From Siphonodentalium dalli (lineage: Eukaryota > Mollusca > Scaphopoda > Gadilida > Siphonodentaliidae), in contig CP136061.1 in NCBI GenBank assembly GCA_032622095.1, positions 25,732,991 through 25,796,990 of the forward strand: DNA of 64,000 nucleotides, in the 5' to 3' direction. A program made the translations under genes and the position numbers. Of the stretch, positions 14,107 to 62,609 are shown piece by piece (the first letter of the stretch is position 1; each line of letters starts with the position of its first letter). The notes beneath the pieces were generated by a model. It was not told the DNA's origin, did no database searches, and saw only the letters and a program-made list of their open reading frames with translations.

Positions 14107-14840
14107 ACCAGCCGATGAGCCCGACGTTATCCGGGCTATTCAAAAACCAAATTTCAAGTCGATAGCTCTACCCAGCCCGACGTTGTCCGGGCTATTCAAA
14201 AACCAAATGTCAAGTCGATAGCTCTACCCGTTTCCGAGATCTGGTCTGCGCATGCGCGAAGCTGGCGTCGCACGGGCTCGGCGACCCGATAAAATTCGTA
14301 TCCGGGGCAAGATACATTCACATACCAAATTTCAAGTCGATAGCTCCACCCGTTTCCGAGATCTCGTCTGCGCATGCGCGAAGCTGGCGTCGCACGGGCT
14401 CGGCGACCCGATAAAATTTATATCCGGGGCAAGATACATTCACATACTAAATTTTATGTCGATAGCTCCACCCGTTTCCGAGATCTCGTCTGCGCATGCG
14501 CGAAGCTGGAGTCGCACGGACTCGGCGACCCGATAAAATTCGTATCCGGGGCAAGATACATTCACATAGCAAATTTCAAGTCGATATCTCCACCCGTTTC
14601 CGAGATCTCGTCTGCGCATGCGCGAAGCTGGCGTCGCACGGGCTCGGCGACCCGATAAAATTCGTATCCGGGGCAAGATACATTCACATACCAAATTTCA
14701 AGTCGATAGCTCCATCAGTTTCCGAGATCTCGTCTGCGCATGCGCGAAGCGGTGGCCGCACGGGCTCGCCAATACGACAACGACCACCGCCTGGTCAAAC
14801 TACACACACGTACCAAGTTTCGTCCCGATCGGTCGATATA
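14107..14840 (+). mobile_element. HINE/pearl-like element with 122-bp satellite array
   Basis: The terminus GATGAGCCCGACGTTATCCG (hairpin GCCCG..CGGGC) is present twice, followed by about five tandem monomers of exactly 122 bp, then a distinct tail (ACGACCACCGCCTGGTCAAA, CGTCCCGATCGGTCGA). Each monomer contains CCGTTTCCGAGATCT and TGCGCATGCGC (at 14247 and every 122 bp to 14735). Overlapping ORFs of 84-123 aa arise because the monomer lacks stops; they are not genes. An internal satellite plus a hairpin terminus fits non-autonomous Helentron-type elements; class by inference. Confidence 0.65.
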
Positions 14841-16957: not shown

Positions 16958-17445
16958 CTAGCTGATGGGCCCGACGTTGTCCGGGCTATTCAAAAACCAA
17001 ATTTCAAGTCAATAACTCCACCCGTTTCCGAGATCTGGTCTGCGCATGCGCAAAGCTGGCGTCGCACGGGCTCGGCGACCCGATAAAATTCTCGTATTCG
17101 GGGCAAGATACATTCACATACCAAATTTCAAGTCGATAGCGCCACCCGTTTCCGAGATCTCGTCTGCGCATGCGCGAAGCTGGCGTCGCACGGGCTCAGC
17201 GACCCGATAAAATTCGTATTCGGGGCAAGATACATTCACATACCAAATTTCAAGTCGATAGCTCCATCCGTTTCCGAGATCTCGTCTGCGCATGCGCTGC
17301 ATGGGCGTCGCACGGGCTCGCCAATACGACAACGACCACCGCCTGATCAAACTACACACACGTACCAAGTTTCGTCCCGATCGGTCGAGAATCGTAGATT
17401 TGTATTAATGACAGACAGACAGACAAACAGACAGACAGAGGTCTT
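16958..17445 (+). mobile_element. HINE/pearl-like element with 122-bp satellite, copy 2
   Basis: Starts CTAGCTGATGGGCCCGACGT, has about three 122-bp monomers, the ACGACCACCGCC tail, CCGATCGGTCGAGAATC and a (GACA)n microsatellite at 17410-17440. It faces copy 3, tail to tail. Confidence 0.7.
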
Positions 17446-17460
17446 CAAAATATATATGAG

Positions 17461-18060
17461 ATATGTTTGTATGTCTGTCTGTATGTCATTGATACAAATC
17501 TACAATTCTCGACCGATCGGGACGAAACTTGGTACGTGTGTGTAGTTTGACCAGGCGGTCGTCAACGTCGTATTGGCGAGCCCGTTCGGAGCCCGCTTCG
17601 CGCATGCGCAGACGAGATCTCGGAAACGGGTGGAGCTATCGACTTGAAATTTGCTATGTGAATGTATCTTGCCCCGGATACGAATTTTATCGGGTCGCCG
17701 AGCCCATGTGACGCCAGATTCGCGCATGCGCAGACGAGATCTCGGAAACGGGTGGAACTATCGACTTGAAATTTGCTATGTGAATGTATCTTGCCCCGGA
17801 TACGAATTTTATCGGGTAGCCGAGCCCATGTGACGCCAGATTCGCGCATGCGCAGACGAGATCTCGGAAACGGGTGGAGCTATCGACTTGAAATTTGGTA
17901 TGTGAATGTATCTTGCCCCGGATACGAATTTTATCGGGTCGCCGAGCCCGTGCGACTCCAGCTTCGCGCATGCGCAGACCAGATCTCGGAAACGGGTAGA
18001 GCTATCGACTTGAAATTTGGTTTTTGAATAGCCCGGACAACGTCGGGCTCATCGGTTAGT
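17461..18060 (-). mobile_element. HINE/pearl-like element with 122-bp satellite, copy 3 (inverted)
   Basis: Reverse-complement arrangement: (TGTC)n microsatellite, GATTCTCGACCGATCGGGAC on the minus strand, about four monomers, and terminus GACGTTGTCCGGGC..CTAACCGATGAGCC ending at 18060. Tail-to-tail with copy 2, making an 1.1-kb imperfect palindrome. Confidence 0.7.
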
Positions 18061-20169: not shown

Positions 20170-20461
20170 ACACAGGAAATCTCCGGAATATAGAATGGTG
20201 ATTGAGCTTGATGAATATTTATTCTGGGTTTTTAGTATTCGAGTTACACGTGTGGAGACCGGCGTATAATAGATATGTAAATTTTCGTCTTCAGCGTTTT
20301 TAACTCTCGAATGTTGGATGAGCTCGATCAATATTCATTCTGGGTTTTGAGTATTCGAATTACACGTATGTGGACCGCGAACTCCCCGGAGTATGGTAGA
20401 TATGTAAATTTTCGTCTTCAGCGCTTTTCACTCTCGAATATTGGGTGAGCTCGATCCTTAT
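20170..20461. repeat. Two ~140-bp tandem units flanking the 4.9-kb element
   Basis: Units share ATTCTGGGTTTT..GTATTCGA, ACACGTGTGGA-like, and AGATATGTAAATTTTCGTCT followed by TCAGCG. Partial relatives are at 25860-25905 and 26910-27000, on the far side of the mobile element. Confidence 0.65.
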
Positions 20462-20912
20462 GGTTACACTGGTGTAAATACTATAGCCAGCTCCCCCTGC
20501 GGTTGCGGGAGGAGTATAGAGTTTCACAGTTAAAACACTCTGGGCTGTGATTGGTTGCATGAATTAAATGTAAACTGTTGACAAAAATTCAAGGAATCAT
20601 TCTCCCACAAACTTCATTTGCCAAGAGGCCCATTCATTAAAGGTGAAGTCTGTTGTGGCTGTTTAGAAATTTTAAGTGTGATTGAAAAAATGACAATATT
20701 TTTTTAGTGCGGAACTGACCCTAGTCATGAAAAAACGAAAATTTGAAGTGGATTCCCTGCTAGACGGTGTTGATTTTTTTATTGGGAAAGTTTCCACAGA
20801 TGTCAAGCTCACATAATCCGAAGGCAGTTTGAACAGTTTCCATTTGACCTCTGATGCAGATCAACAAACGTTAACATTGAAGCCTATGGGAAATATTTAC
20901 ACCAGTGTAACC
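20462..20912 (+). repeat. Left 451-bp terminal direct repeat
   Basis: Bounded by 19-bp inverted termini (GGTTACACTGGTGTAAATA), so it is itself shaped like a MITE. The terminus is internally near-palindromic (TTACACTGGTGTAA). Its right end is 28 bp from the first ATG of the nuclease gene, so any promoter for that gene must lie in this repeat. Confidence 0.9.
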
Positions 20913-20940
20913 TAAAGGTATTTATCCAGTTCCTGATAGC

Positions 20941-21381
20941 ATGTCCCAAATCCAATTTTTAAACACACATTTAAGAATAAACATGGAGGAGAGTCAATTT
21001 TATGATTTTTACAATGCGAAATTATCCGAAAAATCGAGATTTGAGGGGTTGTTCGACTGTCGCGTTTGGACAGGTCGGACAAGAAAGGACGGTTATGGAT
21101 ATTTATATGTCAAGTTCCCTTCGAGTTATAATTCTGAGCCCGGTCAGCCGAGAAAGGATTGGGGTGTCCACCGAATAGCATTCGTCATAAAACACAGACT
21201 CGCGATGTCTCCACCCGCCTATTACCCTGGCAGCCTCGAACTTAGTCACATATGCCATAGGAAGACATGTGTAAATCCCGACCACATTGTTATGGAAAGC
21301 CATGAAAAAAATGTTGAACGACGCCATTGCGAGGGACAGAAATATTGCACTAGGGCACATAGACCCTTTTGTCTGATTTGA
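20941..21381 (+). CDS. His-Cys-box (I-PpoI-type, beta-beta-alpha-Me) homing-type endonuclease, 146 aa
   Basis: An intact 146-codon ORF. The core LSHICHRKTCVNPDHIVMES carries the candidate catalytic His103, and Asn124 is the expected metal ligand. Zinc ligands for site 1 are Cys40, Cys105, Cys110 and His115; for site 2 Cys130, Cys136, His140 and Cys144. From His103, the ligands at +2, +7, +12, +21 and +27 match I-PpoI exactly, and the last three are shifted by at most one residue. The RVWTGRTRKDGYGYLYV strand region is typical of the HNH superfamily. The predicted activity is a metal-dependent double-strand DNA nick or cut. Met15 (20983), with a stronger start context, is an alternative start. 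The gene converges on the transposase, leaving about 20 bp between stops. A small intact nuclease beside a transposase may serve cleavage, targeting or copy-number gain; that role is inference. Confidence 0.85.
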   Translation: MSQIQFLNTHLRINMEESQFYDFYNAKLSEKSRFEGLFDCRVWTGRTRKDGYGYLYVKFPSSYNSEPGQPRKDWGVHRIAFVIKHRLAMSPPAYYPGSLELSHICHRKTCVNPDHIVMESHEKNVERRHCEGQKYCTRAHRPFCLI

Positions 21382-21401
21382 GTTAAAGAGAAAGGTACAT
21401 T

Positions 21402-21647
21402 TCACCTCCTTGGTTTAACCCTTTTCCACTTGGATGACTTAGTGTATGTGTGTTCCTTTAACTGTTTGGGACATGCTTCAGGTGGAATCATGATATCCTT
21501 CTGATAGGCAATTTCCTCACTATGTTTGTCGTAGAGAGCATATAACTTTGCCCTCCTGTCCACTCTTGCCCGTTTGGACTTTTTGGTCATTTTATATGAT
21601 CTCAAGTCATTTCCAGCCTTCTGCACTGCTGCAAGTCTTTTGGACAC
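21402..21647 (-). CDS. Transposase C-terminal segment in a shifted frame
   Basis: Overlaps the end of the main exon in another frame and continues for about 80 codons (SKRLAAVQKAGNDLRSYKMT, then KKSKRARVDRRAKLYALYDK and HSEEIAYQKDI). The basic, DNA-binding-like tail looks like the natural continuation of the transposase. The frame switch lies near AAAGTGTCCAAAAGAC at about 21640-21660, in A-rich sequence. It may be a disabling indel, a sequencing error or ribosomal frameshifting; no intron fits. Confidence 0.55.
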   Translation of the reverse strand: MSKRLAAVQKAGNDLRSYKMTKKSKRARVDRRAKLYALYDKHSEEIAYQKDIMIPPEACPKQLKEHTYTKSSKWKRVKPRR

Positions 21648-23183
21648 TTTGATCTTGGGTGAATCTCACAATCAAGTTCTTTACACAACACAGATATGGA
21701 ATTCCCACAGCCTACATTTGTGGAATGGCAAGCTGAATGTGCACGCCCACTAACATTTCGGGTAAATGTCACATTTTTGGGCAGAGATACCCGAATTGCT
21801 CTGTTGAATGCCTCGGCTTTTTGCGTGTTCATGCCAAGAAAAGTCTTGTCATTCATTTGTGGACACAGTCTGTAGTCAACACACTCCGTGAGAATATCCG
21901 AACAGTCCGAAGTTTTATTGATCGTAAATTTGGGTCCTAGCACAGTTTCATTTTTAACGATCCAGTTGGATTTTTTCGTTCCCTTGCACAGATATGAGTA
22001 TTTTTTACACATAACATGGGAGTTTTGGAAACACTTCACTATTGCTTCTTTCACATTCAGTAAATGTTTCTTCATTCCTTCAGCGTTGGCTTTGAAATGC
22101 TTTCCCGCAGATGTCAATTCACCCTGACATCGATCAGAAATGTTCATTGCGAGTTTATTTATCAGTTTTGATTTGCTTTTTAGGTCAGGTCCAGCGATGA
22201 GAGTTGGCAGCGTCTTATGGTTTTTGATGAATTTCCGATGGTTTCTCGACACATGAGCTGAGTCCAGTTGATGAGTTGGTCTGGTCGCTGTTGCTCCTTC
22301 GTCATAGAGATCCTCACAGCCTTTGAAGCCCGCTGCATCGGGATCAGTAACAAGGTGACCAATCTCGATATTGCTATTGGTTTTCATTTCACCAAATGCT
22401 TCTTTCGCCCATGTTCTCTCATCGCCGATGCTCTTCTCAAATGGAATCGTTGCGAAACAGTCTTTCCCACATGTGTGATTATCACATTTGTTCAGGTGTT
22501 TGCGTTTCGAACAAAGCTTGTTGTGCACCACAAGTCCAATAATGTCATGTGACGGCGTTAGATTTTCAACAACACTGTATATAACTTGAGTGCTTGGTTG
22601 AAATGGGTTTCTGCCACACCCAGAATAAATCGGATTATTATAAAGTCCATCTGCCTGTGCGTCGATGATATGTGGACTCTTCTTTCCATCAGTTTGTTGT
22701 TTATGTATGAGTTTCGAACGTCTTTCTCGGAGATCCTTTTTATTTATTTCCTCAATTTTTGGTAAACTTTTATTTGCTGTGCTCTGAATTGACTTTTCGG
22801 CTGGCGGGGGAATATTAGCACTTGCACATATGCGTCTGAATCCTCCTGCTGCAATGGGTGTTTTAGATAATCCGACTGAAAGTCCAACATTTGGTTTTGC
22901 TGGTCTCCTGCCAGGGTTCCCTGTTATAATTTCATCATACAGGTTGAAAATTTCAGATCTAAAATCACAACACGTGCAAATCATTTTCTCTCTACATCCA
23001 ATTCCACGAATTTCCTCAGCGTTCATGTCCCAGTATAGGAATCCTGTACACGTGGGTTTATATGCCCTATGTTTTTCGAAGGAAGAGTTCCACATCATCG
23101 CATTTCGGCGTATATTGACCACCCTGTTTGATCCGCATTCGCATTGCCAACCACTGACACATCTCTTGTCTGGGCTATCATTT
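21602..23183 (-). CDS. Mutator-like transposase, main exon
   Basis: Follows acceptor TTTTTAATTTTCAG (AG at 23185-23184) and is open for about 527 codons. It begins with a Cys pair (WQCECG), then CTGFLYW and IGCREKMICTCCDFRSEIFN (zinc-ribbon-like). After that come GGFRRICASANIPPP, SPHIIDAQADGLYNNPIYSG, RNPFQPSTQVIYSVVEN, SIGDERTWAKEAFGEM, HLVTDPDAAGF and HQLDSAHVSRNHRKFIKNH. I recognise this block order from the large family annotated as Mutator-like transposase domain proteins in invertebrates. Asp in DAQADG, TDPDAAGF and the LDSAH block are candidate catalytic acids. Exon 1 joins in phase (AG|A). The ORF stops at 21602, apparently by frameshift; see 21402. Confidence 0.8.
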
Positions 23184-23751
23184 CTGAAAATTAAAAAGTA
23201 AAATCCTAAATTTTACTCTTTGAACCATATATATTAAAGGTACATACATATCGGTCTAACTGTGAGATATTTTTTTTCTTTAAAAACACTGCCTGCTCCA
23301 AACAGTCCTTTGAATGAATAGTAAACTAAAGCACTCAGTGCTGCAATTTAATTTATATATATCTGCATGCAAAGCAATGTTATACCTGTGCTGTTTGCAA
23401 TTAGTGACCCAATTCATATGAACAGAATAAGGGGAGTAACTCTATCTGCAAATTATTAGGCTGAAAACCTGTGTTTTGACTCAGGGTACAGTTTTCAAAT
23501 CATTTCCTGCACACAGAGGGATGGGGGCATGTCAAATTAATTTTTGTTGTCATGCAGGAGGACACAGCCAAGATTTTGAAAAAAGATTTTAAAGTCATAC
23601 ACTTGATTTGAGAAGATCAAATATATGTTTAGTTTATTGATATTATAATGCTGAATTTCATACCCCCCCCCCCCCTATTTCTTATCTATATGATGAAAAG
23701 AACATGCATATAACATTGTTTGTTGCATGGAATATTGTGAGAGATGTTTAC

Positions 23752-24002
23752 CTTTCATTTTTTCTTTCAGGCTCTTTGTTGTCAGATTGACCCTTCCCTC
23801 TTGGATTAAGACTGTTTGCAGCAGACCGAGTTTGATGTGCTCTCACAGAGTATGGCTTTTCGAGAATGTCCAGTGATGTAATGATCGTTCTTTTGCGTAA
23901 ATGTTTCACTACTCTGTTATCCACATATGGTTCTCGCTTGGCTTTATACAACTGTTTGTGTCCTGGTTTGAATCTGAGGGGATTATCAAATGTAAACTTC
24001 AT
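23752..24002 (-). CDS. Mutator-like transposase, first coding exon
   Basis: The ATG at 24002 opens MKFTFDNPLRFKPGHKQLYK and continues basic and unstructured to donor GAAAG|GTAAAC at 23752/23751. The 568-bp intron is followed by a strong acceptor at 23184. The split codon joins as AG|A, keeping frame into NDSPDKRCVSGWQCECG. The longer frame upstream of 24002 has no ATG and meets a stop, so 24002 is the likely start. About 940 bp separate the start from the right terminal repeat. Confidence 0.65.
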
Positions 24003-24940
24003 TGTCTCACAGTCCTCACAAATTCCAAAATCCACTCAACAACTCTGTCACATTAACAGCATTAATTTGGAAAATTCTTCTCGCGAATATACAACTTCCA
24101 GAATTTTTACAATGAGAAATGATATTTGTCTCGAGAAATGATGACAACTAACCGTTCTGAGATCAGCACCTTGCTTTTAAGGAGTTTTGAAATTAATGAT
24201 GCTTGAAAATGTCTGCCATCTTATCTGTTGATATATTACTACTTTATCAGCTGAAGGAACATGTTGTCATTATAACCTCATCATTGGCACCCCCTGTCCA
24301 ATGTTAGTTAACGACATTTGATACTGTGAGACAATAGATTAAGGATTCCTTCTAATTGGGATTGCAGCAGACATTACAAATTTTAGCACCATTTTCAATC
24401 AGGAAAATTCACCGGACCCAGGGTTAAAACACCCTTGTCTGAGCTCATTGTTTAAATAATTTTCCACTTAATTTTTCTGATTTTGGGACAAGTAGTAATT
24501 GTTCTTCAAAATTATGCCAAGTTTACTGACTAATGAACCCTCCACACTATTTATTTTTCAAAGTAAAGGCATTTTTTGTGTGAATCTGCAGCTGATTTGC
24601 ATAGGGTTAAATGAAACCTGTGCATATCTGTTCCTGTGGAGAAATTAAATTCATGGGACACAACAGATGAAAGCCAAGTGAAAACCTGATCAAATGAATG
24701 TGGTATAACTTCTCATGCTTTATTAGATGCCTCATATTATTAAATTAAACTCAAATCCAACCTGCATTTTGGCTTTTTATTCTGAATGGGTGTATTATTG
24801 GGTGGGTTCCAATTAAAGGGTCACATGGCATTAAAAACACATTTTTTTAAAACAACATCAGTTTAATAATTATAGGTATATATCAAGGTTCACAATGGGT
24901 TATGCACAAAAAATATGAAGAAAGGCCACATGGCCCTTTA
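24003..24940. other. Transposon 5-prime flank of the transposase, no gene seen
   Basis: AT-rich, presumably transposase promoter and leader. It ends GGCCACATGGCCCTTTA at the right repeat; GGCCACATGGCC is a near-perfect palindrome. Confidence 0.4.
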
Positions 24941-25391
24941 GGTTACACTGGTGTAAATACTATAGCCAGCTCCCCCTGCGGTTGCGGGAGGAGTATAGAG
25001 TTTCACAGTTAAAACACTCTGGGCTGTGATTGGTTGCATGAATTAAATGTAAACTGTTGACAAAAATTCAAGGAATCATTCTCCCACAAACTTCATTTGC
25101 CAAGAGGCCCATTCATTAAAGGTGAAGTCTGTTGTGGCTGTTTAGAAATTTTAAGTGTGATTGAAAAAATGACAATATTTTTTTAGTGCGGAACTGACCC
25201 TAGTCATGAAAAAACGAAAATTTGAAGTGGATTCCCTGCTAGACGGTGTTGATTTTTTTATTGGGAAAGTTTCCACAGATGTCAAGCTCACATAATCCGA
25301 AGGCAGTTTGAACAGTTTCCATTTGACCTCTGATGCAGATCAACAAACGTTAACATTGAAGCCTATGGGAAATATTTACACCAGTGTAACC
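24941..25391 (+). repeat. Right 451-bp terminal direct repeat
   Basis: Appears identical to 20462-20912 in full by eye and has the same orientation. Followed by TTATTACGCG, matching the TTAT that precedes the left repeat. Confidence 0.9.
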
Positions 25392-26072
25392 TTATTACGC
25401 GCGCCGCGTGTATAACTAGTGGGGAGTTTCTCGCTTCTCGTGGGGGCTGACATTATCAATGGGTGTTTTATTAGTTTTATTTATAGAATGGGAATTTTTG
25501 GGATGATTAAAAGTCAAACTGCGAGCTGGAGGCCGAGTCCGGTAAAAGGTATAGTTGGGGAATTTCAATTTCGTTTATTGTCGTTAATCAACGTTGATTA
25601 ATGTTGATTTTTGGTTTGTGATAAACTATATGTCAATTACAACTGAAAGAATTTTCTGCAGCCCATGAACTGGGGCTTGTGGTCGGAGACCGTCGAGTCG
25701 GTCGCCGTTTCGTTAATTAGGTGCTGGTTGTTATTGTTATTTTAACGGAATTCTGAGTTGGTCATTCGCAAAACCAATATATTTTATATTCTACAATAAC
25801 ATTCTTGGGTTTATAATATATGATCTTGAGCGCGTTACCATTTCTGACATTGGTTTTCTTGTTCATTCTGGGTTTGGAGTATTCGAGTTACACGTGTATG
25901 GTTGGAGATCTAACTTTCCCGTTATTATCAGGTCACCGATTCATTTATATACAAGTCGAGATGGTCACCGATTAATTTATAGATGTCAAGAGCACGTCAT
26001 GAAATCACGTGGTTTCTAGGTTGGTGAGTGTCACGGCTTAAAAATGTGCAAACGCACACAATTATAATATAC
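25392..26072. other. No gene; distant copies of the 20170-20461 unit
   Basis: 25860-25905 repeats TTCATTCTGGGTTTGGAGTA and a TTCGAGTTACACGTGTATGG block. Otherwise AT-rich and featureless. Confidence 0.4.
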
Positions 26073-28284: not shown

Positions 28285-28870
28285 TTTAGCACGGGCTACA
28301 GGTCGTATTTTTTGTCAGATCATTATGAAATTTGTCATAGCTGTTGCCATTGACATGTAGATGGGAACTAGTTATTTTTGGGGTCATTCGGCAAAAACAT
28401 GGCTGCCAGCGGCCATCTTGGATTTCAAAATTCAACCCATTAGCACGGTCTACAAGCCGTATTGTTTGTCTGATCATCATGAAATTTGTTATGGATGTTA
28501 ATATTGACATTCGGTCATAAAACATGGCTGCCGGCAGCCATCTTGGATTCTACTCTTTGCATGACTAAATCCTTTGGCATGGGCTACATGTCGTACCTTT
28601 GGTCTGATCATTATGGAATTTGCCATGGCTGTTAACATTGACATGTAGAGGGGAACGAGTCATTGTGGGGGTCATTCGGCCATAAAACATGTCCGCTGGC
28701 AGCCATCTTGGATTTTACTCTTTGGAACACAATACAGTCCACTTCCCTCATCCGATCATCACCAAACTTCATATCAATCTTGATAATTAATCTACTAGAT
28801 GAAAGCTATCAATGTTTTTGAATTTCATTGGAAAACGTAGCCGCCAGCAACCTTCTTGGATTTTACTCTA
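28285..28870. repeat. Tandem ~130-170-bp units (GCAGCCATCTTGGAT type)
   Basis: Three to four diverged units: AGCACGGGCTACAGGTCGTA, GATCATTATGAAATTTGTCA, TTGACATGTAGA, GTCATTCGGCCATAAAACAT and GCAGCCATCTTGGATT, ending with a degraded copy near 28855. No coding content. Confidence 0.65.
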
Positions 28871-37308: not shown

Positions 37309-38893
37309 ATAATTGTGCGGGTTAAATTTTTCTAAAGTGACGTTGTTGGTGTCAGGGGAGGGGCTATTTTTAGCACATATTTCGACCAAATTGATATATT
37401 ATTCTTCTCCGTGATACGAGGAATATAAAACGTGTGATTTAAAGACGGGAAATTTGTGCCTTTTGTGTGAGAGATGGGGGGGGGGGGGTAATAACTATGA
37501 TAAGAATTTGTTTAGTTGCCGATTACCACCAAACTTATATATAATCATCTCCATTATATAATGCATGCATGAGTCTAACAGACGTGGCTTTAATATGACA
37601 AAAGTGGCGCGGTTCAAGTCATGCATGAGGGGAGTTGCACCAAAGTTGTTACAAATATGTTTAGCACTGATTCCACCAAATTCATGTACGTTCTTCTCTA
37701 CTGATATGATGAATTAAATCACATTTTGGGTCGTTTGGGTCATGGATGGCGAGAGGATATTCACTAGCATTGATAAGATTGCTCAATTCGCCGATATCCA
37801 ACAAAGTTATATATAGTCATCTCACAGGCCATCTCCATGTCGTTCTAAGGAGTTTTTGGCATTCCAATTTCACAATCTCGACAAATGGTGACCGAATTAA
37901 GTCACTTGAACAATTATATCTTCTCAACTGTCATATTTATATGGGGATGGAAATCAGGGCATAGAAGAAAGCATTAAAAGTATATTTATATCAATCTATT
38001 TAAGAGATACATATATTTATTCAAACTGAGGGACATTGAATCGTCAGATGATTGCATATTAGAATGGCTCATGTATATATTATAACACGATTGAGTCTGT
38101 CGCATTCAATATAGTTTCCACAAAAAAAGTTAAAATTGCCAAGAGATATTGAAATATAGAGCAGGCCTGTTCAAAAATAGTGGTCACAGTGTGCAATCAA
38201 ATATGGTTACTTCTGAGATAAAGGAAAACGCAGTCCGTAGCACTTGACTTTTCAGGATCCTCCAATATTGACATCTGACAAGGGTATATCTGCCCGATAC
38301 AGAGGATTTCTTTCATTTTTTAGAACAGACTCATCGCCTAACATAACCAACTCAAAATATCGATGTGTCGGGCACATGTAGCTGCTATACCTGCATAACA
38401 TCAATTCTTTTAAACTTAAAATGATTAGCCAGTATATAGCACCAGAACAGAGGAGCACCTGGTCATATCTTCAAAAGATCTGTATCTTCATGAAGATATG
38501 ATAAACTAGATTGATTAATGTAAATCTCTATGTAAAACACAATTGTCGTTTTTAATTTTTTCGAACTAATGTGTTTATGATGTTCATGTTTCATGCTATA
38601 ACATCTGAAGTATTCGCAGTTGTAAATAAATAGATACTTCTTTATTGGTGGGACGGATTAAATGCGATAAACAAAATGATAATCGCTCCGACCTGACAAG
38701 GTGAGCAACTACTTATATTCCATGTGTAACAATAATGTTTTGTGATGCCATTTGGATATACAATTTGTGAGAATACGTGTAAAATGTACACTTTGAGAGC
38801 AAGAGTATTCTCAATTCCCACCAACAATATCCACAGAGGGTTTCACATCACTTTAACTTTAACCTGGGTAACGCCGGGTAACCCTGCTAGTTA
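37309..38893 (-). mobile_element. HINE-like element H2, inverted second copy
   Basis: Reverse-complement match to 34251-35457, with unrelated DNA of about 380 bp at roughly 37880-38260 interrupting it and without the tandem units. The terminus CCGGGTAACCCTGCTAG ends at 38893. With copy 1 it forms a 4.6-kb fold-back. An 11-G run is at 37478-37488. Confidence 0.7.
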
Positions 38894-39353
38894 AGTTATA
38901 TATCGCCGGGTAACCCTGCTAGTTAAGTTATATATCGCCGGGTAACCCTGCTAGTTAAGTTATATATCGCCGGGTAACCATGCTAGTTAAGTTATATATC
39001 GCCGGGTAACCCTGCTAGTTAAGTTATATATCGCCGGGTAACCCTGCTAGTTAAGTTATATATCGCCGGGTAACCATGCTAGTTAAGTTATACATCGCCG
39101 GGTAACCCTGCTAGTTAAGTTATACATCGCCGGGTAACCCTGCTAGTTAAGTTATATATCGCCGGGTAACCCTGCTAGTTAAGTTATATATCGCCGGGTA
39201 ACCCTGCTAGTTAAGTTATATATCGCCGGGCAACCCTGCTAGTTAAGTTATATATCGCCGGGCAACCCTGCTAGTTAAGTTATATATCGCCGGGCGACCC
39301 TGCTAGTTAAGTTATATATCGCCGGGCAACCCCGCTAGTTAAGTTATATATAT
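38875..39353 (-). repeat. 32-bp tandem array (~15 copies) of an element terminus
   Basis: CGCCGGGTAACCCTGCTAGT plus TTAAGTTATATAT repeats every 32 bp with very few changes (ACC>GCAACC/GCGACC late in the array). The first 20 bp of the unit are the H2 terminus; the remaining bases look like flanking target. There are no variable spacers. Confidence 0.9.
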
Positions 39354-56475: not shown

Positions 56476-56913
56476 ATTTATGTTGTCCCTCTAAAAAAAT
56501 AAAAACAATATTAAATAAATTAAGTTATCAGGTCTTGACATCCCTTTGCCAATTGGTATAAACCATAAGGCAGACGAAAGTGAACAAGTACATAGCAAAT
56601 GGATTTTCATATAAAGAAGCCGATGCAAAAGTTATGATACGATGTTAGAGTAAATGGACTTTGAATTATTTTCGGGATCTTTTCTTTGTCATCTGTTCTA
56701 ATTTATATTGGAATAGAGGTCTGAATAATGCATGGTATAGTATGACGAATAATTATCAGGCAAATTTTTTCGAACTTAATTGCATGGTTCAAGTACGCAA
56801 ATACCAAGTACGTTTTGAATCACATTTGCTCCATCACCTCCTACGGCTACACCAGATATGCTTGCCAATATAAACCCTAAGATGGCATAATTAATCGTGT
56901 ACCAATCGAGCGA
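56476..56913. other. No gene recognised
   Basis: AT-rich intronic sequence before the 45-bp minisatellite. Confidence 0.35.
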
Positions 56914-57735
56914 CACATATGGTGGTGATATTGACACAAACGGGGGATGAGGTGGCGACACATATGGTGGTGATGTTGACACAAACGGGGGATGAGGTGG
57001 CGACACATATGGTGGTGATGTTGACACAAACGGGGGATGAGGTGGCGTCACATATGGTGGTGATGTTGACACAAACGGGGGATGATGTGGCGACACATAT
57101 GGTGGTGATGTTGACACAAACGGGGGATGAGGTGGCGACACATATGGTGGTGATGTTGACACAAACGGGGGATGAGGTGGCGACACATATGGTGGTGATG
57201 TTGACACAAACGGGGGATGAGGTGGCGGCACACATATGGTGGTGATGTTGACACAAACGGGGGATGAGGTGGCGACACATATGGTGGCAATGTTGACACA
57301 AACGGGGGATGAGGTGGCGACACATATGGTGGTGATGTTGACACAAACGGGGGATGAGGTGGCGACACATATGGTGGTGATGTTGATACAAACGGGGGAT
57401 GAGGTGGCGGCACATATGGTGGTGATGTTGACACAAACGGGGGGTGGTGTGGCGACACATATGGTGGTGATGTTGACAAAAACGGGGGATTAGGTGGCGT
57501 CACATATGGTGGTGATGTTGACACACAAGGGGGATGAGGTGGCGACACATATGGTGATGATGTTGACACAAACGGGGGATGAGGTGGCGACACATATGGT
57601 GGTGATGTTGACACAACGGGGAATGAGGTGGCGTCACATATGTTGGTGATGTTGACACAAAAGGGGGATGAGGTGGCGACACACATGGTGGTGATGGGTA
57701 TGAGGTGGCGACACACATGGTGGTGATGTTAAAAC
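56914..57735. repeat. 45-bp minisatellite, ~18 copies
   Basis: CACATATGGTGGTGATGTTG followed by ACACAAACGGGGGATGAGGTGGCGA repeats with few changes. Because 45 is divisible by 3, long ORFs exist on both strands (15-residue repeats such as PPHPPFVSTSPPYVS on minus). Indels near 57229, 57616 and 57690 break every frame, and there is no start or splice context, so I call it noncoding. Confidence 0.9.
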
Positions 57736-59427: not shown

Positions 59428-59475
59428 GTAAGTTATACACAATTGTCATCCACTGTTAGACAATTTACAGACAGT

Positions 59476-61083
59476 TGTATCATTTCATTACGGCAATGTG
59501 TTATGTACGGTTACGGAACATTGTATCATTTCATTACGGCAATATGTTCTGTACGATTACGGAACATTGTATCATTTCATTACGGCAATATTTTCTGTAC
59601 TGTTACGGAATATTGTACAATTTCATTACGGCAATATGTTCTGTACGGTTACGGAACATTGTATCATTTCAATACGACAATATGTTCTGTACGGTTTCGG
59701 AATATTTTACAATTTCAATACGGCAATATGTTCTGTATGGTTACGGAACATTGTATCATTTCATTACGGCAATATGTTCTGTACGGTTACGGAATATTGT
59801 ACCATTTCATTACGGCAATATGTTCTGCACGGTTACAGAATATTGTATCATTTCATTACGGCAATATGTTCTGCATGGTTACAGAATATTGTATCATTTC
59901 ATTACGGAAATATGTTCTTTACGGTTACCGGCTGTTGTATCATTTCGTTATGGCAATGTGTTATGTACGGTTACGGAACATTGTGTCATTTCATTACGGC
60001 AATACATTGTGTAAGGTTATGGAATATTGTACCATTTTATTACGGCAATATGTTCTGTACGGTTACGGAATATTGTACAATTTCATTACGGCAATATATT
60101 CAGTACGTTTACGGAACATTGTATCATTTACTACGGCAATATGTTCTGTACGTATACGGTTACGGGACATTGTATCATTTCATTACGGCGATGTTCTGTT
60201 CGATTACGGAACATTATATCATTTCATTACGGCAATATGTTCTGTAAGGTTTCGGAATATTTTATCATTTTAATACGACAATATGTTCTGTACGGTTACG
60301 GAACATTGTAGCATTTCATTACGATAATGTTATGTACTGTTACGGAACATTGTATCATTTCATTACGACAATATATTCTGTAAGGTTACGGAACATTGTA
60401 TCATTTCATTACGGCAATATGTTCTGTAAAGTTACGGAATATTGTATCATTTCATTACGGCAATATGTTTTGTACGGTTACGGAACATTGTATCATTTCA
60501 TTACGGAAATATGTTCTGTACGGTTACGAAACATTGTATCATTTCACTACGGCAATATGTTCAGTACGGTTACGGAATATTGTACAATTGCATTTCGGCA
60601 ATATGTTCTGTACGGTTACGGAATATTGTATCATTTCATTACGACAATATGTTCTGTAAGGTTACGGAACATTGTATCATTTCATTACGGCAATTTGTTC
60701 TGTAAAGTTACGGAATATTGTATCATTTCATTACGGCAATATGTTTTGTACGGTTACGGAACATTGTATCATTTCATTACGGAAATATGTTCTGTACGGT
60801 TACGAAACATTGTATCATTTCATTACGGCAATATGTTTTGTACGGTCACGGAACATTGTATCATTTCATTACGGAAATATGTTCTGTATGGTTACGAAAC
60901 ATTGTATCGTTTCATTACGGAAATATGTTCTGTACGGTTACGGAATATTGTACAATTGCATTACGGCAATATGTTCTGTACGGTTACGGAATATTGTACA
61001 ATTGCATTACGGCAATATGTTCTGTACGGTTACGGAACATTGTATAATTTCATTACGGCAATATGTTCTGTACGGTTATGTAA
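59476..61083. repeat. 46-bp satellite, ~35 copies, with 276-bp higher-order repeat
   Basis: TGTATCATTTCATTACGGCA then ATATGTTCTGTACGGTTACGGAACAT repeats throughout with point changes. Units at about 60349-60532 and 60625-60808 match almost exactly, a 6-unit (276-bp) higher-order period. Since 46 = 3x15+1, all three plus frames stay open for hundreds of codons; these are not proteins. The array starts about 50 bp downstream of the SRCR exon donor. Confidence 0.9.
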
Positions 61084-62609
61084 CAGTTGCAATTTTTCGC
61101 ATTTTGAACGGAAACAGATAACTATTACGAATTGCTATTTGTTGTCGTACGGTCCAAAAATATTTTCGGAGAATTGCGCAATACGAGCCAGTTTGTGAGA
61201 CAATCGTGCTTGCCACTCGCAGTAAAGGGATTACAGGGCTGCGTGCCGTGGTTATTTTGTACTTAATTAGGTCATAGCTTAGCGCTTTATGTTTCGCAAG
61301 TGTCTCGTGTTTCACGACGGCGAATGGTTTGATTGCCAATACAAATTAAGGCCACATGGCGATCACAACTCAAGAACATAATCTCATATTGATCTCCCAC
61401 ATTGAGGAGCTGAGAAACGATTGCGAACTTATTACTATATCCCGTATTTGAGAGTTTGATTGAACATTCGAACCCGAACCCGAATCGTAACAATGAATAT
61501 GAAAAAAAACGAATTCTAGTGACGTAGTACCCAATTCATAATATCAAGTTTGCGATTTCAAACGGGTACGTATACGGGTAGCTACCCGTAACGGTACATG
61601 TTTTATAATCGCAAACAGCTTCACGGGTATATAATTCAGCATATGAGCCAACTGCAAACAAATTCATATATTGTTTTTAGTTCCACGGTCCAATCAAGAT
61701 CAAGGCTTACATGTGTAGTTTCGGTCAAATATAAGACCGGTTGGACTTTCGCAACATATCTGAGGGTCGAGACACAAATATGTCAACGTTTATACAAATA
61801 ATTGGGATTTTAGTCTGGATCTAAACCCCTAAGTAGGTTGTCAAGTTCAACTTGAGAACGACAAAGAGCGTTCAATGATATTCTATTCATTATATGGTCT
61901 GAATAAAGAGCTTTTACGTCACTTAATGTGTTTCATATAGCACACAGTATAAATTCTATATATCGGTACTTCGTGTCTTTATCAACCTGTATTATCCCCA
62001 TTGCAATATTCACCATTCTTAAGGTTCAAATGCGCCATGTCCGTACAAAGGGTAAAATCTATTAAATTGAGAAATCAGGCACCACTCATATACGACAAAG
62101 TAACTATGTATGCAAAAAGTGTAATATATGTATGCATTAGCATTAAAGGCACGGGCGGCGTTCATTGCAGAAATATTTATATTTCTTCAAATCGCCATCA
62201 ACGGAAGGAACACCAAATATATACAGTTCCGCTCATAATTATGCCAAACATAATCAGCGCGTAAATAGTATATTGTCGCCAAAATGTACGAAGGTGTACG
62301 TAAACAGGAGACTGCTCGTGTTACAGAAGGCTTCTGTTTACATAACACAGCGCAATTCTATTGATTAATCATACAAAATGATATAAACGCTCTTTATTAT
62401 TTCCATATCAGGAAAACAGTAACAAATAACGCTCTTTATGTTTACCATATCCGGATCTAAACAAAGGCCAGGAAACGTAACGTTTTTTGCGTTCGTTTAC
62501 ATAACAAAGGGGGGAAATTTACAATAACATACTGTTTATGCCATATTTCTGATTGATATAAGAACAAAGTCTGTCTTTATTTTACTATTCTTTCTGCATA
62601 TTTTAACAG
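61084..62609. other. No gene recognised
   Basis: AT-rich. A small perfect palindrome, ACGGGTAGCTACCCGT, at 61574-61589. Confidence 0.35.

Follow-up and report, generated by a model that had tools for sequence, protein, structure and literature searches.

The closest described relatives of the locus reported here are KolobokP elements, a name coined by Kojima and Bao (2022, Mobile DNA 13:24, PMC9587614) for DNA transposons of the form LTDR-INT-LTDR, in which an internal region (INT) lies between two long terminal direct repeats (LTDRs). According to the sections of that paper on which we draw throughout, the LTDRs are about 450 or 660 bp long, each with its own short inverted ends, and the element encodes a DDD/E transposase and, on the opposite strand, an I-PpoI-like nuclease. 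KolobokP has been found in seven animal phyla, mostly bivalves, and solo LTDRs and multimers are common. The same authors propose transposition together with nuclease-induced unequal crossover, argue that the nuclease does not choose the integration site, suggest the inside of the LTDR or abutted ends as candidate nuclease sites, and ask for a mechanism that restores the composite; they describe the target of I-PpoI as semi-palindromic, 15 bp long and with TTAA at its center. Other Kolobok lineages (Kol0, KolobokD, KolobokE and KolobokH) have the same superfamily DDD/E transposase and a 4-bp duplication, and several have an accessory protein, but unlike KolobokP they lack paired LTDRs and their accessory proteins are different (PMC9587614). 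The present study analyzes an element at positions 20462-25391 of a 64,000-nucleotide stretch (the window) of the scaphopod Siphonodentalium dalli (assembly GCA_032622095.1, contig CP136061.1, positions 25,732,991 to 25,796,990, forward strand), together with its relatives in the same genome. It is, with little room for doubt, a copy of KolobokP, and its family, abundant in this genome, is a young, very uniform addition to that known lineage. Scars made of the tips of INT at the outer ends of some copies, together with matched alleles in the two LTDRs of an element, point to a possible circle or array as the mobile form, where an LTDR would have INT next to it on both sides.

The features of the window element are as follows, in window coordinates.

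20458-20461, no strand: left target-site duplication (TSD) TTAT, from the flank read
20462-20912, plus strand: left LTDR, 451 bp, equal to the right LTDR, from repeat comparison
20462-20480, plus strand: left LTDR, outer 19-bp inverted end, from motif search
20894-20912, minus strand: left LTDR, inner 19-bp inverted end, from motif search
20913-24940, no strand: INT, 4028 bp, starting TAAAGG and ending CCTTTA, the tips mutually inverted
20983-21381, plus strand: I-PpoI-like His-Cys-box (His-Me finger) nuclease, 132 aa from its likely natural start
21402-21647, minus strand: transposase C-terminal tail, out of frame with the main open reading frame (ORF) in this copy
21602-23122, minus strand: transposase main ORF, DDD/E type (Pfam "Mutator", PF20700, E 4e-48)
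23184-23751, minus strand: probable transposase intron, GT..AG, in-frame joint, read by eye
23752-24035, minus strand: probable first transposase exon, within ORF 23748-24035, read by eye
24941-25391, plus strand: right LTDR, 451 bp, from repeat comparison
24941-24959, plus strand: right LTDR, inner 19-bp inverted end, from motif search
25373-25391, minus strand: right LTDR, outer 19-bp inverted end, from motif search
25392-25395, no strand: right TSD TTAT, from the flank read

The two LTDRs are 451 bp each and 100% identical, and the 19-bp end GGTTACACTGGTGTAAATA has four occurrences in the window, one at each end of each LTDR, against a mean of 0.06 in shuffles, so that each LTDR has its own inverted pair besides that of the whole element. 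Sequence comparison thus bore out a preliminary description of this locus in its identical 451-bp direct repeats, TTAT flanks and two convergent genes, whose 3′ ends face each other, and in its 19-bp inverted termini, with the amendment that these stand at the element ends but also bound each repeat separately. A run of C in INT, at 23665-23676, differs in length among copies. An Rfam scan of the window gave no match.

The plus-strand ORF matches PF05551 (zf-His_Me_endon, E 2.8e-13), and its best match by sequence in the PDB is I-PpoI (E 6e-4). The zinc-binding His/Cys pattern of the His-Cys box and the catalytic S-H, H and N positions are present, and in an alignment of three nucleases the residues S88, H89, C91, H92, C96, H101, N110, C116, C122, H126 and C130 were invariant; the SH..C..NPxH..N positions are conserved also in a second family of the same genome (family B, below). 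The PF05551 zinc-binding region and the catalytic-site pattern are thus shared with I-PpoI and other His-Cys-box homing endonucleases, but enzymes of the I-PpoI group are encoded by a group I intron and this one by a transposon. No homologue of the nuclease was found in the protein collection searched. Just 5′ of the nuclease start the window copy lacks 11 bp that are present in 14 of 14 other copies compared, and because of this deletion the first 14 residues of the ORF, an extension to 20941, are spurious; in the same 14 copies a TGA lies just upstream of the ATG at 20983, which is therefore the likely start. The transposase was called Mutator-like in the preliminary description, and the PF20700 match stands, but "Mutator" is there the name of a Pfam domain, and the published account places such elements in the Kolobok superfamily (PMC9587614). 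Five transposase motifs (D, D, DSAH/DTAH, CCHC and E), which were placed by eye with the published KolobokP description as a guide (C/DxxH, CCHC after the first D), are common to the window element and family B, and a Pfam search of the probable first exon gave no match. Near window position 21648 (alignment column 747) a single base is missing from the window copy, 13 of the 14 other copies having T there and one C, and the last part of the window transposase is therefore shifted to another frame. A family B copy, in which two overlapping ORFs share the transposase, keeps this tail in frame. Judged from its reading frames, the window copy probably makes the nuclease but no intact transposase.

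Searches covered 2.23 Gb in 9 contigs. Among 1141 first-look candidates for the 451-bp repeat the best 40 were scored, and all 40 were full length and 100% identical; of 30 LTDR loci, 23 had INT on one side only, 4 had INT on both sides (inside arrays) and 3 were solo. The nuclease search (150 matches scored out of 444 candidates) revealed regularly spaced arrays of 4, 8 and 13 matches; such spacing alone is no proof of LTDRs between units, and LTDRs were seen at the loci actually read. Long tandem arrays occupy C8:164865764-164914666, with 13 regularly spaced nuclease matches, and C3:3233524-3283245, with about a dozen matches of a 70% relative. In two trimers the units share private variants unseen in 12 other right-hand or 15 other left-hand sequences, a pattern suggesting that arrays grow in place. 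Between the units of one array we counted 0-1 substitutions (C8 and C9) or 1-4 (C6), whereas single copies differed from each other by a median of 5. A 4041-bp spacing in the C8 array had raised the suspicion of a lost LTDR, but an LTDR end is present at each of the two junctions read (L063, L064), and the short spacing is therefore an internal deletion. A search of the whole genome for INT-INT junctions of the window family (family 1), with exact flanks required, gave one LTDR-less junction, at C7:88109489, where CCCTTTA is joined to AGG with 3 bp lost, forming a near-palindrome around TTTAA and resembling the LTDR excision footprints of the KolobokP paper (PMC9587614).

The same-genome search that the preliminary description had called for thus recovered full-length copies with both genes and the same repeat architecture, in agreement with its view of one mobile unit with two enzymes, and the nuclease was present in related elements. 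Its suggestion of an undescribed system has been overtaken, as KolobokP, with its composite architecture, is already published (PMC9587614), and its idea that the nuclease may cut targets runs against the argument made there that this enzyme leaves the integration site to be chosen otherwise. Common to that description and the window family are LTDRs of about 450 bp with short inverted ends, termini GG..CC (in keeping with the KolobokP rule 5′-RR ... YY-3′), short duplications around the whole element with weak target specificity, a DDD/E transposase with an I-PpoI-like nuclease on the opposite strand, solo LTDRs, multimers and an LTDR excision footprint of 3 bp. Some points weigh against the assignment. 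It was made by anatomy, against the published description; the inverted ends are 19 bp here and up to 18 in the sections of the paper used; the AlphaFold model of the nuclease (pLDDT 38.7) is too poor to use; and in the C8 array no variant was both private and fixed in the 8 units compared. Regular arrays of up to 13 nuclease matches are a further difference. INT-tip footprints that replace one duplication, and alleles shared by the two LTDRs of an element, go beyond those sections of the paper.

Outer ends were read on both sides in 45 composite elements (31 in a first round, then 2, 8 and 4). Left out, with the outer end not found or inside an array, were 10 of 20 copies of one batch, the C8 array and the C3:3.23 Mb array, whose left side as read was still inside the array; also left out were the family B copy L067/L068 and the loci read on one side only (L073-L077, L079, L167). 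The 4-bp flanks were identical in 38 of the 45, and in 4 of 4 solo LTDRs. The first 34 matching duplications comprised 21 different tetranucleotides, beginning with T in 26 and ending with A in 26; the duplications are thus 4 bp long, loosely TNNA and not TTAT-specific. The TTAT-like 4-bp duplications foreseen in the preliminary description therefore held in length, with TTAT only one of many tetranucleotides, and the family departs also from the TTAA-specific targets given for the Kolobok superfamily (PMC9587614). In the remaining 7 elements the flanks were mismatched and the odd tetranucleotide was in every case the INT tip: TAAA on the right in six (C7:77.9 Mb, C2:22.2, C1:212.6, C6:169.1, C8:81.2 and L061) and TTTA on the left in one (the C2:178 array). 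Seven INT tips in seven would arise by chance with a probability of 7e-9 if base composition is taken as the basis, or 4e-6 if the frequency at which TAAA was observed is used, figures that include the cases from which the idea arose. In two matched elements TAAA is a true duplication on both sides. The element at C2:22 sits in a tandem repeat, and 7 of 9 neighbouring units, among those listed, lack exactly 4 bases at the junction (the others lack 3 and 14). The duplication here was therefore 4 bp long, and its right copy has TAAA where AAAA would be expected, a difference of one base. Units related to that tandem repeat also lie at 28292-28715 of the window. A model in which the INT tip stands as an extra spacer beside a full duplication was rejected, as the tip is not followed by a copy of the left tetranucleotide in the six right-hand cases.

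The two LTDRs of an element also agree with each other. Copies have either C or G at position 26 of the LTDR. Of 18 pairs compared, 17 could be read at this site, and left and right agreed in all 17 (permutation 5e-5); haplotypes of two sites agreed in 12 of 14 pairs. One-sided private changes occur in L041, with T at position 26 of the left LTDR against a right LTDR 100% identical to the reference, and in L038 and L046, and such changes could have come about by mutation afterwards. It is clear from the agreement that, on the time scale of subfamilies, the LTDRs of a pair are made equal, though not by what route. Family B provides a comparison. Its copy L061 has LTDRs with ends GGTTACAGTGAAGTAATT and AATTACTTCACTGTAACC, both genes, INT tips TAAAGC..GCTTTA and a nuclease 42% identical to that of the window; family B LTDRs are 450-451 bp long with ends GGTTACA..TGTAACC as in family 1, to which their 3′ half is about 67% similar. 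Within family B they differ by 0-13 substitutions, and left-right pairs of one element by 2-12, and from this variation and the divergence from family 1 it follows that repeats stay alike within families and diverge between them.

Several explanations may be considered. That the repeats are two independent insertions of a miniature element (MITE) flanking an unrelated locus, the alternative raised in the preliminary description, might be thought of from the complete inverted ends on each 451-bp repeat and the existence of solo copies with duplications, but the same INT lies between the repeats at many loci, with a single duplication around the whole, and at every composite locus read the inner LTDR flanks are INT tips; we reject this idea and give it a negligible chance. 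Under the explanation of the scars that we put foremost, a refinement of the KolobokP reading to which we assign somewhat less than an even chance, the inserting element is derived from an LTDR-INT circle or from an array, forms in which INT adjoins each LTDR at either edge, and the 4-nt flap of the neighboring INT (right-hand TAAA, left-hand TTTA) is sometimes kept instead of one duplication. This would account for the identity of all seven odd tetranucleotides and for the end of the match to INT at 4 nt, the length of the duplication, with agreement at chance beyond (13 of 48 further positions); the four missing bases in C2:22 neighbors and the agreement at position 26 fit it too. Five mismatches preceded the written prediction, and the next 8 elements gave two more, both TAAA on the right as predicted, with none in the last 4. 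A circle with a single LTDR, opened at both edges of that LTDR and with the strands filled in, would also regenerate two identical LTDRs, and this particular version is possible but doubtful. Insertion from a circle or array has its own difficulties. Five of the seven cases went into the forming of the idea, which leaves two that are independent of it, and two INT tips in two have a chance of about 0.005 when calculated from base composition or 0.03 when calculated from TAAA frequency; 4 of the 7 scars are one base away from a normal duplication, and the sides are unequal at six to one. Partial complementarity between flap and target was not supported, as the duplications replaced by TAAA did not resemble it significantly more than other duplications did (p 0.15). 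The two discordant haplotype pairs and the private T of L041 also sit poorly with insertion from a circle or array.

The main rival for the scars is gene conversion between inner and outer LTDR edges, perhaps after a nuclease cut, by which the INT tips would have been made after insertion and not by it. Conversion would always give INT tips and would equalise both LTDRs, but its tracts should end at varied points, yet the pooled agreement with INT stops at exactly 4 nt, and no partial change of 1-3 nt was recognised among the 45 elements; we think it unlikely, if well worth keeping in mind. More improbable is a homing of the LTDR itself, with the LTDR in the role played by the intron in classical homing, in which the nuclease would cut the INT-INT junction left by LTDR excision and repair from another copy would restore the LTDR. 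The INT tips are mutually inverted in both families (TAAAGS..SCTTTA), the abutted tips would be near-palindromic around TTTAAA, LTDR-less junctions are rare (the one exact match for the family 1 pattern), and the KolobokP paper seeks a mechanism restoring the composite; but that pattern requires exact flanks, two families only are compared, and the paper proposes other nuclease sites, inside the LTDR or at abutted ends (PMC9587614). The INT-INT junction as target of the nuclease is a guess. Bacterial composite transposons and the translocatable units of IS26 likewise have mobile repeats flanking a unit and a possible one-repeat circle, but here the transposase lies between the repeats, and nothing recognised is encoded in them (PMC9587614).

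Other repeats lie in the window as well. A 122-bp tandem repeat at three places (14194-14768, 16988-17319 and 17597-18019) also stands beside the L062 copy (L062:5155-5628), with a 31-base piece matching in L062 and L024 (L024:484-514), and is a dispersed satellite-like repeat. Further tandem arrays have 46-bp units in 35 copies (59475-61085), 45-bp units in 17.5 copies (56910-57696) and 32-bp units in 15 copies (38872-39351).

In the mechanism that we envisage, the transposase would recognise LTDR ends and insert the element, by cuts staggered by 4 bp, wherever the target loosely fits TNNA, LTDRs would also be cut out alone, arrays would enlarge in place by recombination between LTDRs, and the nuclease may make breaks that promote such recombination, as proposed for KolobokP (PMC9587614). 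If insertion from a circle or array is correct, an INT-tip flap replaces one duplication in about one in six insertions. A DNA transposon would then make its long repeats anew with every jump, an outcome that LTR retrotransposons reach by a different route, and the nuclease may sustain the cycle by cutting copies that have lost an LTDR. Whatever their origin, insertions with an INT tip on one side would drop out of the tables of the KolobokP paper, because these count only insertions with recognisable TSDs (PMC9587614). Scars and matched repeat pairs together offer a way to choose among circle, array and plain cut-and-paste, a choice left open in those sections of the KolobokP paper on which we draw (PMC9587614).

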